From NCBI GenBank assembly GCA_001899315.1, contig MOYA01000001.1, positions 1,712,599 to 1,776,598 on the forward strand: a stretch of 64,000 nt of DNA, read 5' to 3'. Origin of the DNA: Candidatus Obscuribacter phosphatis. GTDB taxonomy: Bacteria > Cyanobacteriota > Vampirovibrionia > Obscuribacterales > Obscuribacteraceae. Positions 2,500-17,554 of the stretch are shown here, one piece after another. Below the pieces are notes generated by a model that ran no database searches, was not told where the DNA came from, and saw only the letters and a list, made by a program, of their open reading frames with translations. The position numbers and the translations under genes were made by a program. The first letter of the stretch is position 1; every line of letters begins with the position of its first letter.

Positions 2500-5088
2500 T
2501 CAGCGACCTTCTCTAAATTTGGTTATCTGAGCTGGTGTCGGCAAAAGGATATGAATGCCAGGCTTAAATTGCCTAGAATCTTGAGCCAGCAAGTGGTTAG
2601 GATTTAGCTTGAGCAAAAGGGGCGCCAAATACTGATCAAGAAGTATTTCTCTGGACACAGAGTCGGCTGTATCGCCTTCTTTCGTCAGATAGGAGAACTC
2701 GTGCTCAGAGGCATTGGCTTGACTATGAGATTGAGCATCAATCTCGCTGTCAACTCTAGCTTCGACCGCTGAGTCGGAAGCTTCGACCGCTGAGTCGGAA
2801 GCCCCGCCAGATTGCGATTCATTTTGGTTGAGCTCGGGCTCGATCGGGGTCATGGCTTTAGTTTGCCCTTGGACAGCCAAAGAATCTGATCCGCTCACAG
2901 AAAAAGCCTGAAGGGGCAGAGTTTCGCTTTCTTGCGACTGATCATTGAGTAGCGGAGCTACTTTCTGGCTTCTGTCTACTTGTTGCCCGCCGTAGGTACC
3001 GTCTGGAAGATGCAGCTTTATCTCAGGCTTAGTCTTCAATGGCAGTCCCTCAAATAGTTCCCGAACCAGATCTTGCACTATTACAGTCTTGTCGCCCGTA
3101 TCAGATTTTGTCGAAGAGCTTTGCTCGGAGCTGGCGGCGGAAGCATTCTTAGAATCGGGAGGATTCGGATAAAAAGGAGTATTCGGCGCGGCAATCTCGG
3201 GAGTTTTGGTAACGGGAGTTTTGGTAACGGGAGTTTTAGCAGAGGCATCTTTTGAGTCTATTTTGCCGTTCAGGAAAAAGAGGATTCGATTGCCAAAGTC
3301 TCCGAGTTGCCCCAGACGGTCGACAACAATCTCTACGGCCTTTACGCCAAATTGACGCCTTACCAGCTGAGAGCCGGCTGCTGTTTCGGAGGTTCTATCG
3401 CCCACCTGGTTGCCTTTATCAGCACTATTCTTGTCTTTAGCGGGGGGAAATTTCGCCTCTTTTGGAGCCTTATCGGTGGTTTGCCCAGTCGATCTTTGAA
3501 TGCCATAAATCAAGTTATCAATCTTGGTCTCTAGAGGCGTTTTGCCACTTGCGGAATTCGAGTCTGGTCTGTTCTGACCGGTTGCCGAATCACTAACCCC
3601 GGAAATGTGATGCTGGCTTTTGCCAACGTGGGTATCGCCTTTAACTTGATTGGGCGCCTTTAGTCCAGATTCAGGTCTGGTGGAGGCAGCAGTATCTGGA
3701 GCAAGGCCCAGCTTGATTTGCCAGCTACGAATGGTCTGGGTTGGATCTGAAAAAACAGAAAAACCAAGAATTCGTGGCGATTGATTTTGTGTTTTGTCTG
3801 ATGGTTTATCGGCTGATTTGTCGGAAGATTTGTCTGAGGATTTTTCTCTGGATTTGGAGGTCTCGGACTTAGCGGCGGTTTTGGATTCATCTGTCTTAAG
3901 AACGTCTCCGGCGCGGAGAACAAGGCTTCGCAGTCCTTTGGTGTTCTCCATGATTAGACCAAGCGGTCCATCAGAGCCGCGCATTTCTTTCGGCAGTTCT
4001 AGACGAACCATTGGGCTGCCAGAGGACGAGGACTTATCATTTTTGGGTGAGGCTTTGTCGAAGAACCGATTAGTTTCCTTAGTCAAAAACATATCGGTAT
4101 TACTTTCCAAGCGCCTTGGCTCGCCAGACATTTCAGTCCGAAGAGCCTTACTAATTGGACCTTCTGAGGCAGCACCGGCTCTTAAGCCAGAATCCCCTTT
4201 CTCTAATTTTTCTAATTTTTCTAATCCACCGCTCTTGTCAGGAGTCTTAAATCCTTGGTGATTCTGGAAGTCATTTCGGTTAAAAGGAATGCTGACGTTC
4301 TTAATGCCCAAAGATTCACTCTCTGAATTCTTTGATTGTTTGACCTGACTTACACCTCTGTCATTAGAGGGTGGCGCCGAATTTGCGCCAGGATTCCCAC
4401 TCTTTCCGACGGATGAATCAGGATTATCTGTATCGCTATTCCGCTTGATACTTCTTTCTAAGTCTCCTATTTTTGGCAGCCCAGCAGAATTAAACTGCGA
4501 CGAATCCGGTATGGAAGGTTTGTTGAGGTTCTCTGACTTATTAGCAGGCGGTCCATTTTCTAGGGACTTATCTAGAAGCTTGGGTCCTGAGTTCTCCCGG
4601 CTGCCTGAACCAGGCGAGTCTGCGCGAATAGGTGCAGGCTGACTGTCGCGGTCTGACCGCTGCGGTGGCTGCTCAGAATTGGTCTCTTTGGCAGAAGGAG
4701 AAGGGCCAGTTTTTGGACCTGTAGATGAAACTTCTCCGGACAAAACAGGAATTGAACGCCTATCAGGACCAGACTGCGTCGCACTTTGCTCCGAACTTGC
4801 CAGAACCTGACTTATAGGGTCTTTCGAAGGATGGGCTTTGGAAACTTTGGTTGGATCAGATTGGTCAAGGGAGCGAAGGTCTTGGGTTGGAAGCGCTTTT
4901 CCGGCTTCAGGGATTGAAGTTTGGGGAGTACGGTCGCTGACCGAGGGACTTGACGAATTAGATTCCTCAGAGGTTGAACCACTTATCGATTCATTCTCAT
5001 GAAAACTTCCACCAGCAGCCTCTAAATCGCTGGCGAATTCTCTCGCGGCAACTCGATTCAAGAATGCGGCATCTCTATCGTCAGTCAT
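2500..5088 (-). CDS. long Ser/Asp/Lys-rich disordered protein with LysM-like C-terminal domain
   Basis: An 862-residue protein with no signal peptide. Residues 1-780 are almost entirely low complexity (Ser, Asp, Lys, Pro, Gln). They contain in-frame duplications such as K-T-P-V-T repeated near 3190-3240 and A-S-D-S-A-V-E repeated near 2760-2805. The last ~75 residues look folded: F-S-Y-L-T-K-E-G-D-T-x-D-S-V-S followed by L-x-x-L-N-P-N and K-P-G-I-H-I-L-L-P matches the LysM layout, which usually binds peptidoglycan-like glycans. That assignment is by eye. The gene directly abuts the upstream TPR gene (stop at 5089, start at 5088), so the two are probably translated together. Confidence 0.75.
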   Translation of the reverse strand: MTDDRDAAFLNRVAAREFASDLEAAGGSFHENESISGSTSEESNSSSPSVSDRTPQTSIPEAGKALPTQDLRSLDQSDPTKVSKAHPSKDPISQVLASSEQSATQSGPDRRSIPVLSGEVSSTGPKTGPSPSAKETNSEQPPQRSDRDSQPAPIRADSPGSGSRENSGPKLLDKSLENGPPANKSENLNKPSIPDSSQFNSAGLPKIGDLERSIKRNSDTDNPDSSVGKSGNPGANSAPPSNDRGVSQVKQSKNSESESLGIKNVSIPFNRNDFQNHQGFKTPDKSGGLEKLEKLEKGDSGLRAGAASEGPISKALRTEMSGEPRRLESNTDMFLTKETNRFFDKASPKNDKSSSSGSPMVRLELPKEMRGSDGPLGLIMENTKGLRSLVLRAGDVLKTDESKTAAKSETSKSREKSSDKSSDKSADKPSDKTQNQSPRILGFSVFSDPTQTIRSWQIKLGLAPDTAASTRPESGLKAPNQVKGDTHVGKSQHHISGVSDSATGQNRPDSNSASGKTPLETKIDNLIYGIQRSTGQTTDKAPKEAKFPPAKDKNSADKGNQVGDRTSETAAGSQLVRRQFGVKAVEIVVDRLGQLGDFGNRILFFLNGKIDSKDASAKTPVTKTPVTKTPEIAAPNTPFYPNPPDSKNASAASSEQSSSTKSDTGDKTVIVQDLVRELFEGLPLKTKPEIKLHLPDGTYGGQQVDRSQKVAPLLNDQSQESETLPLQAFSVSGSDSLAVQGQTKAMTPIEPELNQNESQSGGASDSAVEASDSAVEARVDSEIDAQSHSQANASEHEFSYLTKEGDTADSVSREILLDQYLAPLLLKLNPNHLLAQDSRQFKPGIHILLPTPAQITKFREGR

Positions 5089-5730
5089 TCAAGGGGCACT
5101 ACCATTCAGACAGGTGGAGCGATATTCTTCAGAAACCGAATCGTCTAACTCTGCAGCCTTTCTCAAGTCATCACAAACTGAGTCTTTTGACGCATGCAAT
5201 TCCAACTTGGCCAGACCACGATTATAATAGAGTTCATACATCCCTGGATACTGCTTAAGATACTTAGTCGTAAACTCAATACACTCAGAATTTCTCTTCA
5301 ACTTTCTAAGACTCAATGCCATTAGTCCCAGGCTCGCAACGTTGCCATATTTGTAGCCCTTTTCAAAAAATGGAATAGATTCTTTCCAGTCTCCATTTTT
5401 TGATTTGCAATAACCTTTGAAGAACCACAAGAAACCTCGGTCTGCTCTGAGCTTTAGAGCATAATCACAGATATCTTCAGCCTCGCGAGTTCTACCAAGA
5501 ATACTCAATCCTGAAATCTTTATCTCTAGAGCTCTTATGTTCTTCGGATCAATTGCCAAAATCTTATCCATCTCAGCAAGTCGCTTCTCCACTTCCGGGA
5601 CAGACTGAGCCTTTGCTTGTACTACTGTCTTAGCACCTAAACCAAGTAACACGACCATCATGAGACAACCGCAAATCCAAGGAAAGTAAGTCTTCTTTAT
5701 CAAATCAACTCGCAAGCACCTAGACCCCAA
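5089..5730 (-). CDS. membrane-anchored or exported TPR protein (paralogue 1)
   Basis: A 213-residue protein with an N-terminal hydrophobic segment (about residues 17-35), then L-A-E-M-D-K-I-L-A-I-D-P-K-N and three to four TPR-like helix pairs. The start is TTG, supported by an AAGGAA Shine-Dalgarno about 3-5 nt upstream. It is a clear paralogue of the next gene (6110-6733). Both have the order signal, K-R-L-A-E, L-G-R-T/S-x-E-A, G-x-x-x-x-K-x-x-W-K/E-E-S/A-x-P-F-F, a C-L-R/S-R-L-x-R-N-x-E-C motif, and a Cys near the end. It abuts the downstream gene with no gap. Function unknown. Confidence 0.8.
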   Translation of the reverse strand: MGSRCLRVDLIKKTYFPWICGCLMMVVLLGLGAKTVVQAKAQSVPEVEKRLAEMDKILAIDPKNIRALEIKISGLSILGRTREAEDICDYALKLRADRGFLWFFKGYCKSKNGDWKESIPFFEKGYKYGNVASLGLMALSLRKLKRNSECIEFTTKYLKQYPGMYELYYNRGLAKLELHASKDSVCDDLRKAAELDDSVSEEYRSTCLNGSAP

Positions 5731-13704: not shown

Positions 13705-14970
13705 CTAGCCCTTTACACAGACTAGGGGCTTCAAGCGATGAACAATTTCAATCAGCTCCGATTGAGCTTTCATGACAGCGTCCAAAGACTTGTAGGCCGA
13801 AGGTGATTCATCAAGAATCCCTGCGTCTTTGCGGCATTCAACATGGGCTGTATCACGCTTGTGCTTATCAAGCGAGATAGTCGCTTTTGCTTTAGCCCTC
13901 GACATGGTGCGCCCTGCACCATGCGAACAGCTATTGAAGCTCTCGACATTTCCTTTTCCCTTGACGATGAAAGAACCAGTCCCCATCGAGCCGGGAATGA
14001 TGCCCCAGTCACCTTTCTGAGCACGAACCGCACCCTTTCTGGTGACCCAAACATCCTCACCAAAGTGATGCTCTTTGGCCACATAGTTATGATGGCAGTT
14101 GATCACTTCAACTTCGGTTTGAAATTCAGGAATATCTTTCTGTGATTTGAGAGCATCAACGAGCAGTGCCATCATTACCTGTCTATTTAGATAAGCATAG
14201 TCTTGAGCCCATTGCACTGCTTCAAGATACTCATCGAAATGCTGCGCACCCTCGCTCAAATAAGCAAGGTCACGATCAGGCAGATGAATCTGCTGACGCT
14301 GCATGTCTTTCCTGGCCAAGTCGATAAAATAGGTCCCAATACGGTTACCTACTCCGCGGCTGCCTGAGTGCAGCATAAGCCAGACAAAGCCCAAGTCATC
14401 GACCAATACTTCAATGAAATGGTTGCCGGTACCGAGGGTACCCAGTTGCAAACGGCAACGGAGAGATCCATTGTCTAAGTGCTCGTGTTTGGCAACAATA
14501 GCATCAAAGCGATCTGAAAGTTTAGCCCAAGCTTTGTTGATGCGCTTAATGGCAGGATGTGATGAAGAGAGGCTATCTTTCCAGCAGGCGAATCCCACAG
14601 GAATAGCATCTTCAATGGCTTTCCTGAGACCTTTGAGGTTATCGGGCAAAGCATTGGCTTTCAGATCGGTCTTGACCGCAATCATACCGCACCCAAGATC
14701 CACACCAACAGCGGCAGGAATAATGGCACCGGTGGTGGGAATGACACTACCAACGGTGGTGCCTTTTCCCATATGCGCATCAGGCATAACGGCGACATGG
14801 CTGTGAATGAACGGCATAGAGGCCAAGTTGATCAACTGGCGTCTAGCCTCTTCTTCCAGCGGTACGCCCTTTACCCAAGCCTTGATAGGCTTATGCCTGG
14901 GCAAATGAATGATTTCATAATCAGTGCTTTGATGTTCGTTCATTGTTTTAAGCTCAATTTGTTTGTCCAT
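13705..14970 (-). CDS. rtcB: RNA-splicing ligase RtcB
   Basis: Joins 2',3'-cyclic phosphate and 5'-OH RNA ends using GTP and Mn2+. The family landmarks are present: P-D-A-H-M-G-K-G, G-V-D-L-G-C-G-M (metal-binding Asp/Cys), G-N-H-F-I-E-V, H-S-G-S-R-G-V-G, N-C-H-H-N-Y-V and C-S-H-G-A-G-R with the guanylylated His. At 421 residues it is the normal size. Its start overlaps the end of a possible small ORF by 31 nt, and a hairpin-rich segment lies upstream. No archease or RtcA gene is in the window. A tRNA or mRNA repair role is inferred from the family. Confidence 0.96.
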   Translation of the reverse strand: MDKQIELKTMNEHQSTDYEIIHLPRHKPIKAWVKGVPLEEEARRQLINLASMPFIHSHVAVMPDAHMGKGTTVGSVIPTTGAIIPAAVGVDLGCGMIAVKTDLKANALPDNLKGLRKAIEDAIPVGFACWKDSLSSSHPAIKRINKAWAKLSDRFDAIVAKHEHLDNGSLRCRLQLGTLGTGNHFIEVLVDDLGFVWLMLHSGSRGVGNRIGTYFIDLARKDMQRQQIHLPDRDLAYLSEGAQHFDEYLEAVQWAQDYAYLNRQVMMALLVDALKSQKDIPEFQTEVEVINCHHNYVAKEHHFGEDVWVTRKGAVRAQKGDWGIIPGSMGTGSFIVKGKGNVESFNSCSHGAGRTMSRAKAKATISLDKHKRDTAHVECRKDAGILDESPSAYKSLDAVMKAQSELIEIVHRLKPLVCVKG

Positions 14971-15167
14971 TTTACTTGTTCCAGAAAAAGTTGTCGTTTA
15001 TTCGGTGCAGCCCCAATGACACTATTCTCGCCGCCAAAATCCGCGCCGGCGTCATCTTGGGTCTGAACCCGAGAAAGTACCCTCACTTCTCTATTGCACG
15101 GACCATAATCATGGTTGGCAGCAATCACGAAGATCCAGTTTGATATAGCGTCAACTACGTACCTCAT
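14940..15167 (-). CDS. possible small protein upstream of and overlapping rtcB
   Basis: A 75-residue ORF starting at ATG 15167, with a strong AGGAG seven nt upstream. Its end overlaps the first 31 nt of rtcB in another frame, which would allow translational coupling because rtcB itself has a weak ribosome site. The sequence reads like a soluble protein (W-I-F-V-I-A-A-N-H-D-Y-G-P near residue 15, C-terminal Q-L-F-L-E-Q-V-K-W-T-N-K). I do not recognise a family. Conservation would be needed to accept it firmly. Confidence 0.5.
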   Translation of the reverse strand: MRYVVDAISNWIFVIAANHDYGPCNREVRVLSRVQTQDDAGADFGGENSVIGAAPNKRQLFLEQVKWTNKLSLKQ

Positions 15168-15198
15168 ATTGATTCTCCTATTTCTGAGGTCTAACCGA

Positions 15199-15341
15199 TT
15201 TCCAATTCTGGAAACAAGACTTTTGATGGCACCGGCAATCACTCATGTGATATTACCGGTAGTGCCATCAAGAGCCGCCCGAAAACCAGCGTATGCTTTC
15301 GCTACGCTCTTTTCGGCTAGCTGAAGATTGCTATCTTCAGC
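15199..15341. ncRNA. candidate structured RNA: four consecutive hairpins in the rtcB leader
   Basis: Four stem-loops follow each other with 3-5 nt spacers: 15199-15214 (6 bp, ATTC loop), 15220-15274 (about 20 bp with small bulges), 15279-15316 (7 + 6 bp with an internal loop) and 15320-15341 (perfect 9 bp, TGCT loop). On the minus strand this would be the leader of the small ORF and rtcB. The strand is not certain because hairpins are symmetric. The hairpins are read directly from the sequence; calling it an RNA element is inference. Confidence 0.5.
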
Positions 15342-15582
15342 AACACCTTTGCATACTCTTCAGTATCTTTCGATTGGAACAGCAAAGACTTGCACTAACT
15401 CTACTTGTTCCAGCTAATTTTTAGTGGGTGACTTGGCAATCGCAACTGCACTGAACATAGTGCATACACAGGGCTTAGAATACTGAGCCTATTATGTTGA
15501 GCTTAGTATGTCTTGAGACTCGGTATCAGATTGAGCTGCGAATTTTTATTGCCCAAAACTCTTACTTAAGAGTACCACTAAA

Positions 15583-15798
15583 CTAGCGCCCACCCTTGAG
15601 ACTGCCGAATCGACCACTGCCCTTGGGATAATTGCTTAAGGACAAGACACTAAATCTATTAGTGCCGATTGGCGGTTCGACAGAGCCCGTCTCACCATTG
15701 CCAAAGTAGCCTGTTTCGGAGGCGCGTATTTCATCAATACGCAGCGCCGGCTGCGATAGCATCGATTTAAATTGTTCGGATGCATTGATGAACAACAT
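15583..15798 (-). CDS. small hypothetical protein
   Basis: A 71-residue ORF with ATG at 15798, preceded by a good GAGAGGG ribosome site 7 nt upstream. The start M-L-F-I-N-A-S-E-Q-F-K-S-M-L is followed by a Gly/Ser-rich, polar C-terminal half, probably flexible. There are no signal peptide or transmembrane segments. No family recognised. It stands in a 1.3-kb stretch with only small ORFs between rtcB and the next large gene. Confidence 0.5.
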   Translation of the reverse strand: MLFINASEQFKSMLSQPALRIDEIRASETGYFGNGETGSVEPPIGTNRFSVLSLSNYPKGSGRFGSLKGGR

Positions 15799-16063
15799 GG
15801 AAGTACCCTCTCTATAGATCTCCAGAATAAAGTCTCCTTCTGCATTTTGTCAAGCAGAAATTTTAGAAGGTTTAGAACTCGGCAAAGAAAGGCATTAGCA
15901 CCACCGGCAGTGCGCTTGCGATTGCCCTATGCAGCAGGCTGGCCAGGCTGATTTAGATAATTGATTTAGATAACTGATTTAGACAGCTTATTTGCAGAGC
16001 TGACAAAAACAAGTCAGCTTGATCAAGCTGGCTCGGTACAGTTTCCTTTTGTTAGCGCAATTG

Positions 16064-16171
16064 CTAGTGAAAGCCGTCTTCGTTGAACTCGCCACCAACA
16101 GGCAAATAATCATTGACCAAGGTGGTCAAAATTGTGCTCACGAGAATAACCACTACGCTAAGCAATGTCAT
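16064..16171 (-). CDS. small single-pass membrane protein
   Basis: A 35-residue ORF: one hydrophobic helix (T-L-L-S-V-V-V-I-L-V-S-T-I-L-T-T-L-V) followed by a short acidic tail. The ribosome site is weak (GGA about 14 nt upstream). Small one-helix proteins of this shape often regulate membrane partners, but nothing here shows a target. The remaining bases from 15799 to 16272 include a short gatttagata repeat near 15950-15990 and no other gene. Confidence 0.4.
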   Translation of the reverse strand: MTLLSVVVILVSTILTTLVNDYLPVGGEFNEDGFH

Positions 16172-16272
16172 AAGTAATAAATTCCAAAGAGTGCCCTAAT
16201 TATCTCCTCTTCGCATATACATATCGGTAAGGCAATTAGCCACATGAAGTTTTTGTTACACGCGTTTAATCT

Positions 16273-17403
16273 TTGCATGTACTAGGCAACGGAAGAGCCT
16301 TTTACTATATTGAGGTAACTTACCAAGAGTTCAGCAATCCCGTGCCGAGACTTCATTTAACTAGCCCCTATCTCAAGTTCTATAGCTTAGCTCTTTGCTT
16401 GAGCCTAAGCTTGGGTGGCGCCGGCGCCGACTCTTTGCATAAGGTGCCTCACGAGTGGCGCATGAAACCACTAAAGAAAGTAGATACGACAACTAAAATA
16501 GCGCCAACACCAGTTAGAAATTCGGTGCACCCGATAAAGTCTGAACTTGGGCAAATCAGACCGAGCACAAGCCTTAATATTGATGGTAACAGCAACAGAT
16601 TCGGCTCAACAATTGCCGCCTGGACTGTAGCCAACCCAAAAGCAGTGATTCTATCTTTGCACGGCTTTGGTCTATCTAAAGAGTCATTTGCAGGTTTCGC
16701 CTCAGCCATGAATCGCTTTGGCATTTCGTGCTATGCCATGGATGTGAGAGGTTTCGGCTCTTGGAAGGAAAAAGAGAGCGAGAAACTAGACTTTTATAAA
16801 ACACTGATTGATGTCAAAGCAGCGCTCAGTTATTTGCGGCAGCACAACAAAACTCCCATATTTTTGCTCGGCGAGTCTATGGGTGGTGCAGTGGCTCTGC
16901 AAGCTACTTCTATGTTTCCCGATGCGGTTGACGGAGTAATCGTATCGGTGCCAGGTGATTCTTATTACAAGACACTTGAAGCCAGTACAAAGGTCGCCCT
17001 GGAATTTCTCAAGCCGGGCGGCGGCATTGACCTATCTGAACATGTGGTGGGCAACTCTACTAGCAACGAGAAAGTACGCAAAGACTGGCTCAATGACCCA
17101 CAAGCCAGGCTGAGCCTCAGTGCCGGAGAGCTACTAGCCTTCAAGAAATTCATGAGCAAAACCGACGATATGGTGAAAGACATCACAAGCACACCCGTCT
17201 TGATGTTTCACGGCTATAAAGACCAGCTATCTAAACCATCCGGCACTCTGAGAATATTCAGAGAGCTAAAGACCAGTCAAAAAGATTTGATCATGCTGGG
17301 CAGTGCTGAGCATTTGATTTTTGAGAAAGAACAGTTCGACAACCATGTCGTAGAGATGGTGCGCGCCTGGATTGGCAAGCATTGCCAATCCAGTTTTAAA
17401 TAA
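16273..17403 (+). CDS. alpha/beta hydrolase, monoacylglycerol-lipase / lysophospholipase type, exported
   Basis: Catalytic layout: oxyanion L-H-G-F-G, nucleophile G-E-S-M-G-G, acid in G-Y-K-D-Q-L, histidine in S-A-E-H-L-I. With M-D-V-R-G-F-G after strand 4 this matches the monoacylglycerol lipase (Hydrolase_4) group. A signal-like segment (Y-S-L-A-L-C-L-S-L-S-L-G-G) lies about 40 residues in. The TTG start at 16273 is therefore probably too early; GTG at 16342 would put the signal peptide at the N-terminus. The last codons contain the palindrome that is then repeated downstream of the stop. Confidence 0.85.
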   Translation: MHVLGNGRAFYYIEVTYQEFSNPVPRLHLTSPYLKFYSLALCLSLSLGGAGADSLHKVPHEWRMKPLKKVDTTTKIAPTPVRNSVHPIKSELGQIRPSTSLNIDGNSNRFGSTIAAWTVANPKAVILSLHGFGLSKESFAGFASAMNRFGISCYAMDVRGFGSWKEKESEKLDFYKTLIDVKAALSYLRQHNKTPIFLLGESMGGAVALQATSMFPDAVDGVIVSVPGDSYYKTLEASTKVALEFLKPGGGIDLSEHVVGNSTSNEKVRKDWLNDPQARLSLSAGELLAFKKFMSKTDDMVKDITSTPVLMFHGYKDQLSKPSGTLRIFRELKTSQKDLIMLGSAEHLIFEKEQFDNHVVEMVRAWIGKHCQSSFK

Positions 17404-17538
17404 ATATGGCAAGCATTGCCAATCCAATTAAAATAGATCCGGCAAGCATTGCCAATCTAAATAAAGGTTCAAAATAAATCTGGCAAGCATTGCCAATCTA
17501 AATAAAAGCTCAAAATAAATCCGGCAAGCATTGCCAGT
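17371..17538 (+). repeat. five copies of a palindrome, ggcaa-gca-ttgcc, at a gene end
   Basis: The 16-nt core ggcaagcattgccaat occurs at 17374, 17408, 17441, 17482 and 17523, with spacings of 34, 33, 41 and 41. The first copy lies inside the last codons of the hydrolase; the others fill the gap to the convergent sigma gene. Each can fold into a 5-8 bp hairpin. The spacer TAAATAAA is also repeated. It may act as a two-way terminator. Confidence 0.93.
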
Positions 17539-17554
17539 CTATTTAGAGATTAGA

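Follow-up and report, generated by a model that had tools for sequence, protein, structure and literature searches.

The hairpins that lie directly before the rtcB operon of Candidatus Obscuribacter phosphatis, an uncultured relative of the cyanobacteria, are a real and probably functional RNA leader that is coupled to a new small protein, new in its detail although its general kind is known. On balance, we read them as the cis-acting 5' leader of an operon comprising the small protein and RtcB, most likely an intrinsic control element for RNA repair and not a Y RNA.

Position and fold of the hairpins

The hairpins were identified in a window of 64,000 nucleotides, the whole stretch of DNA that was analysed, and are listed here in the direction of rtcB.

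15375..15412, minus strand: hairpin H0, -13.3 kcal/mol, with one copy of a 12-nt repeat in its 5' arm
15345..15374, minus strand: hairpin H1, weak, -3.8 kcal/mol
15320..15341, minus strand: hairpin H2, 9 bp, -11.4 kcal/mol
15279..15316, minus strand: hairpin H3, 15 bp with bulges, -18.0 kcal/mol
15218..15276, minus strand: hairpin H4, the largest, -30.4 kcal/mol
15198..15215, minus strand: hairpin H5, -5.4 kcal/mol
15161..15190, minus strand: start-codon hairpin, weak, predicted fold with the Shine-Dalgarno sequence in its loop

Folding of the rtcB strand gives at least four strong hairpins at 15198-15341, directly before the small ORF that opens the operon. The original prediction had placed stem-loops at 15199, 15220, 15279 and 15320, and these were recovered at 15198-15215, 15218-15276, 15279-15316 and 15320-15341, closely spaced as predicted, although the intervals between H2 and H5 are 2-3 nt rather than 3-5 nt. 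The loops of H2-H5 are 4 nt long. The weak H1 and the good H0 extend the stack on its far side, and H0-H5 together form a series of self-contained and very stable hairpins spanning 215 nt. The fold z score is -6.6 for 15200-15399 and -7.0 for 15151-15350, compared with a mean of -0.54 (sd 1.2) over 426 folding windows of the 64 kb, where the best value outside the hairpin segment is -4.8; no other part of the 64 kb folds as well. When 15190-15420 was folded separately (plus-strand letters), z was -6.9 and 0/200 shuffles folded equally well.

Conservation in the relative G002

The same RNA is present in one relative, G002, with 93% identity across the hairpin segment. In the consensus fold of the two sequences, four one-sided changes and one double change of base pairs are all kept and none is broken, and the fold of the window sequence alone keeps five one-sided changes and one double change, with one pair lost beside a 2-nt insertion in G002. 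H4 carries the double compensatory change, A-U to G-C at 15260/15231, as well as G-U to A-U at 15275/15219. In H0 the pair 15407/15380 goes from C-G to U-G, one U-A pair of H2 becomes U-G, the changes in H3 are confined to loop bases, and the start-codon hairpin has A-U to G-U at 15185/15166. Each one-sided change means that, on the rtcB strand, either the window or G002 has a G-U pair at that position; in an RNA of the opposite strand the pair would be an A-C mismatch, so that selection, if any, acts on the RNA read in the rtcB direction. Changed columns are somewhat rarer in paired (8/172) than in unpaired positions (10/94; p = 0.08), and 51 of the 54 pairs in H2-H5 show no variation at all.

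A covariance model built from the window and G002 found no third member among 50 genomes of the taxonomic family, and since only these two sequences carry the RNA and the changes are few, the covariation is favourable but thin. The analysis that had been proposed with the original prediction thus yielded compensatory changes, in two sequences only. It is likely, on this comparison, that the hairpins form in an RNA transcribed in the same direction as rtcB, with a structure conserved on the strand of the gene as in a structured cis-regulatory leader.

Would a stretch of intergenic DNA that folds well by accident, and has no function, account for these data? The relatives carry unrelated sequence at the same place, and informative changes are few, as such a stretch would have it. 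However, the identity to G002 in the hairpin segment is higher than that of rtcB (91%) and far higher than that of the adjoining 15582-15414 (75%), z is about -7, and all informative consensus pairs are kept, so that we consider accidental folding rather unlikely.

The 2-nt insertion of G002 lies inside H4 and would shift any frame through the stack. A coding explanation of the hairpins, one of the outcomes that would have overturned the original prediction, is therefore excluded.

The 12-nt direct repeat TACTTGTTCCAG, which had been proposed to flank the segment, does exist as exact copies at 14973-14984 and 15402-15413. Its upstream copy, in the 5' arm of H0, is changed from CTGGAACAAGTA to CTGGAATAAGTA in G002, keeping the stem and breaking the repeat. 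The repeat is therefore best read as chance, and we reject it as a meaningful boundary. Several palindromes in series with a direct repeat at the ends could also suggest an action at the DNA level, as REP/MITE-like repeats or recombination sites. Yet the element occurs once in the genome, where membership in a REP/MITE or other transposable family means many copies; the changes in G002 make G-U pairs, which are fine in RNA and weakening for a DNA cruciform; and the repeat itself is altered there. We regard this explanation as very unlikely.

The small ORF and its protein family

15175..15179, minus strand: Shine-Dalgarno sequence AGGAG of the small ORF, from the sequence, predicted unpaired
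14940..15167, minus strand: small ORF, 75 aa (MRYVVDAISN...), new small-protein family
14973..14984, minus strand: the other copy of the 12-nt repeat, within the small ORF and close to where rtcB starts
13705..14943, minus strand: rtcB, RNA ligase of 412 aa when read from the ATG overlapping the small-ORF stop (Pfam PF01139, E 3.4e-128)

As anticipated, the leader ends in AGGAG (15179-15175) and the ATG (15167) of a small ORF. Its TGA overlaps the ATG of rtcB (ATGA), and the stop overlaps or abuts the rtcB start in the window, G002, G027, G011 and G001, which suggests that the translation of the two genes is coupled. Changes in two pairs of relatives number 0, 1 and 7, and 2, 2 and 10, by codon position; the dominance of third positions marks the small ORF as coding. 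Between the window and G002, by contrast, only 3/75 third positions of the small ORF are changed versus 95/413 in rtcB (p = 3e-5). Third positions are thus unusually fixed, and the RNA sequence of the small ORF may be constrained as well, with recent recombination as an alternative.

The small protein has neither a Pfam nor a PADLOC match, and its structure predictions (pLDDT 52 and 57, pTM 0.23 and 0.25) are too low to use. The family, with lengths of 57-110 aa and the pattern MRFxIEAI...IVExVFVxAGxRxYGxC, is new and previously undescribed. A profile search of the 50 genomes of the taxonomic family finds the protein in 12, one copy each, and in 11 of these 12 the small ORF is directly upstream of rtcB; nine have it on the same contig as a complete rtcB. 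In G062 the contig ends early in rtcB, and L122, with an identical leader, shows rtcB residues 9-147 at that place, while in G001 the order of small ORF and rtcB spans an assembly break. The remaining carrier, G029 (L148, G029:C262), has the small ORF from locus position 3750 downwards on the minus strand, before and overlapping a Ro60 (TROVE) gene, and is assigned to the family on a weak profile score (E 3.8e-4) together with its position and overlap. Beyond these, 385 more genomes of the phylum yielded no member apart from one low match inside a long frame, which is taken as chance.

The upstream leader and its promoter

15824..15853, minus strand: promoter-like site TTGACA-18-TATTCT, 10/12 consensus matches, both hexamers kept in G002
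15712..15800, minus strand: 89-nt block without any difference from G002, covering the 5' part of a possible 71-codon ORF, three-way-junction fold, z -2.8

The promoter-like site is separated from the small ORF by about 650 nt, and is followed on the minus strand by the possible 71-codon ORF (15798-15583), the hairpins (15412-15198), the small ORF and rtcB. Judging from the hexamers, the leader likely starts at this promoter, with a transcript that begins near 15817. The hairpins would then make up the 3' portion of a 5' leader that is long and structured, and the leader, small ORF and rtcB would form a single transcription unit, an operon probably read from 15853-15824. The 89-nt block, a three-way junction directly after the promoter, is without synonymous change relative to G002: 0/29 of its third codon positions are changed versus 95/413 in rtcB (p = 0.0015).

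Between the end of the stack and the Shine-Dalgarno sequence of the small ORF there are 18 nt; with the stack present, the Shine-Dalgarno sequence is predicted to be mostly unpaired (0.7-0.95). No intrinsic terminator was found on the minus strand between 15412 and 15167, so that the terminator between leader and first gene that characterizes a transcription attenuator is missing. The 5' arm of H5 is predicted to pair locally (0.42-0.72) or, alternatively, at long range with 14986-14974 just before rtcB (0.19-0.40); a conserved helix joining H5 to the start of rtcB was rejected, being above chance in the window and G002 (p ~0.02) and at chance in nine other leaders.

Since the stack is close to the Shine-Dalgarno sequence and the small ORF is joined to rtcB by ATGA, we propose that the leader acts in cis on the translation entry point for both proteins, the translation of rtcB being coupled to that of the small ORF via the overlap. 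As the hairpins leave the ribosome site uncovered and no terminator follows them, none of the usual switch mechanisms can be seen, which counts against the cis-acting reading. Because the Shine-Dalgarno sequence is predicted to be open, the stack would rather be a stability and insulation module, or a platform for an RNA-binding factor, than a simple lid on the ribosome site. We favour a role in which it keeps the ribosome site clear and either shields the mRNA or serves as the binding site of a factor, holding each of these modes only tentatively; that the leader regulates, and to what signal it would answer, is likewise inferred.

Elsewhere in the window, a unit with the palindrome GGCAAGCATTGCC (GGCAAGCATTGCCAATC) occurs five times at 17373-17544, spaced 33-41 nt apart, and is absent from the rest of the window. 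Of the five copies, the first is at the end of a hydrolase gene that stops at 17403.

Leaders of the relatives

Nine independent leaders have z scores from -0.9 to -7.5 and are more strongly folded than intergenic windows of this genome (37 windows, mean z -0.4, sd 1.7; Mann-Whitney p ~3e-5, with three windows from this leader left out of the test). Their sequences and hairpin layouts differ. The RtcB proteins of the window and G001 are 85% identical and their leaders are unrelated in sequence, and L035 and L066 have the far part of the leader in common, whereas the 200 nt adjoining the small ORF are not shared. When the fold of one sequence was applied to the more distant G013/G063 pair, 7 changed pairs were kept and 18 broken, which is evidence against a fixed structure in those sequences. 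A structure common to the whole family is rejected, since the covariance model finds the window and G002 only. The relatives thus have in common that their leaders are rich in hairpins, and do not share a single RNA family.

Y RNA, Ro60 and RtcR

The original prediction of an RNA element before rtcB drew on the Y-RNA genes that adjoin rtcB in some bacteria. The element holds, as a structured leader on the rtcB strand; an identity as a Y RNA does not, as no Rfam family matches anywhere in 14900-16280, even at E <= 5. The identity as a tRNA is rejected likewise, with no tRNA match at the hairpins at that threshold. A Y RNA or tRNA-like RNA, as linked to RtcB in Salmonella, would be in keeping with the presence of RtcB, Ro60 and a YrlA-like RNA in this genome, and with the tRNA genes that precede rtcB in some relatives. 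However, the same Rfam library, as a positive control, finds all Ro60-adjacent Y RNAs, at E <= 0.003 here and in five relatives. In this genome the YrlA-like RNA (G000:C1:1978358-1978494) lies 8 nt downstream of the Ro60 gene (G000:C1:1976725-1978350), about 250 kb from rtcB (G000:C1:1726306-1727541). Membership of the leader in YrlA (RF02553) is thus refuted, as it neither matches the model nor adjoins Ro60, and a Y RNA or tRNA-like RNA at this site is hardly credible.

The YrlA-like RNAs beside Obscuribacterales Ro60 genes, often in two copies, score 32-47 bits, below the Rfam gathering score of 69. They are located at L144:4359-4495, L145:4334-4464, L146:1767-1836, L147:780-906 and 1073-1200, L148:563-691 and 905-1036, and L150:4843-4943 and 5045-5164. 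Upstream of Ro60 in L147 and L148 (both reverse-complemented), CGAGAAACCG...CGGTTTCTCG forms a long stem with inner hairpins that is common to two genera.

RtcR is the usual regulator of rtcB. Its gene (PF06956) is absent from G000 and from all family and order members searched, with a positive E. coli control, and this genome thus lacks the regulator of an RtcR/sigma-54 rtc operon.

Comparison with known systems

A scan of other rtcB upstream regions gave two that are strongly folded, both from Acinetobacter (z -5.2 and -6.1), which Rfam names AbsR28 (E 3e-17 and 5e-16), with a sub-threshold match in Moraxella.

L105:2784-2934, plus strand: AbsR28 (Rfam RF02606), at -163 to -13 relative to rtcB
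L107:2792-2938, plus strand: AbsR28 (Rfam RF02606), at -155 to -9 relative to rtcB
L113:2733-2891: AbsR28 (Rfam RF02606), weaker match

Like the leader in the window, which precedes the small ORF and rtcB, AbsR28 is a structured RNA immediately in front of rtcB on the same strand, and the rtcB genes concerned belong to one subfamily. AbsR28 holds a ribosome site, a tiny ORF (MPLLLKL, MPLQLNTI) and a terminator-like hairpin at its end, whereas the window leader has no such hairpin and is followed by a 75-codon ORF that overlaps rtcB. No match to the AbsR28 family model was found in the window and there is no sequence likeness; AbsR28 is a positional parallel, not a relative. It is known as an sRNA that is expressed (PMC5320573), and work on it has dealt with manganese binding and with type VI secretion (PMC11796373); the text searched of PMC5320573, PMC11796373 and PMC11426457 contains no mention of rtcB. 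Its place directly before rtcB makes it a transcribed example that is testable in the laboratory species Acinetobacter baylyi.

AbsR28 also bears on the main rival to a cis-acting leader, namely that the hairpins exist as a small RNA of their own, or are released from the leader as one, and act in trans or serve RNA-cutting enzymes and RtcB as substrate or decoy. Besides this expressed sRNA directly before rtcB, the self-contained and very stable hairpins over 215 nt would fit, as would their replacement, rather than gradual change, between relatives (the window versus G001), as in an arms-race decoy. However, no terminator follows the stack and no promoter directly precedes it, the structure reaches the ribosome site of the small ORF, the constraint continues into that ORF, and the loops of H2-H5 have 4 nt versus the 7 nt of an anticodon loop. 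We give a trans-acting or bait RNA a distinct but minor chance.

In the Salmonella rsr-yrlBA-rtcBA operon (PMC7790460) an RNA ligase gene likewise occurs with a structured RNA, and Ro60 and a Y RNA are in the genome; here, in contrast, there is no RtcR, and Ro60 and the Y RNA occupy a separate locus. Operon leaders coupled through a leader ORF also share the structured 5' leader, the short ORF and its overlap with the next gene, but their stalling peptides have 10-20 aa, whereas here the ORF encodes a conserved protein of 57-110 aa and no attenuator hairpin is seen. In Anabaena, of the same phylum, rtcB and a tRNA array are under the repressor TrcR (PMC10272220), again a control of rtcB without RtcR; unlike the window leader, TrcR acts at the promoter. 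Control by TrcR was rejected for this locus, its 8-mer site being absent from the whole window.

tRNA genes are located upstream of rtcB on the same strand in diverse bacteria, some of them in long arrays with odd members: 21 in L116, 8 in L100, 5 in L098, 4 in L094 and 2 in L039. L043, L044, L069 and L070 each have one tRNA-Ser upstream of rtcB, and the tRNA set of Moraxella (L113) looks like ordinary housekeeping tRNAs.

Implications

The small-protein family, standing before both rtcB and Ro60, ties together two RNA-repair genes in a lineage where they sit apart. More speculatively, and with little weight attached to it, the leader RNA and the small protein could constitute one RNA-damage sensing module, placeable before rtcB, as here, or Ro60, as in G029. 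The fast-changing hairpin stack would serve as bait for RNA-cutting enzymes, and its cleavage or its resealing by RtcB would set the output of the small protein and RtcB. As for the cis-acting leader itself, its combination of RNA structure and a coupled small protein would add a route for the control of rtcB in bacteria without RtcR.
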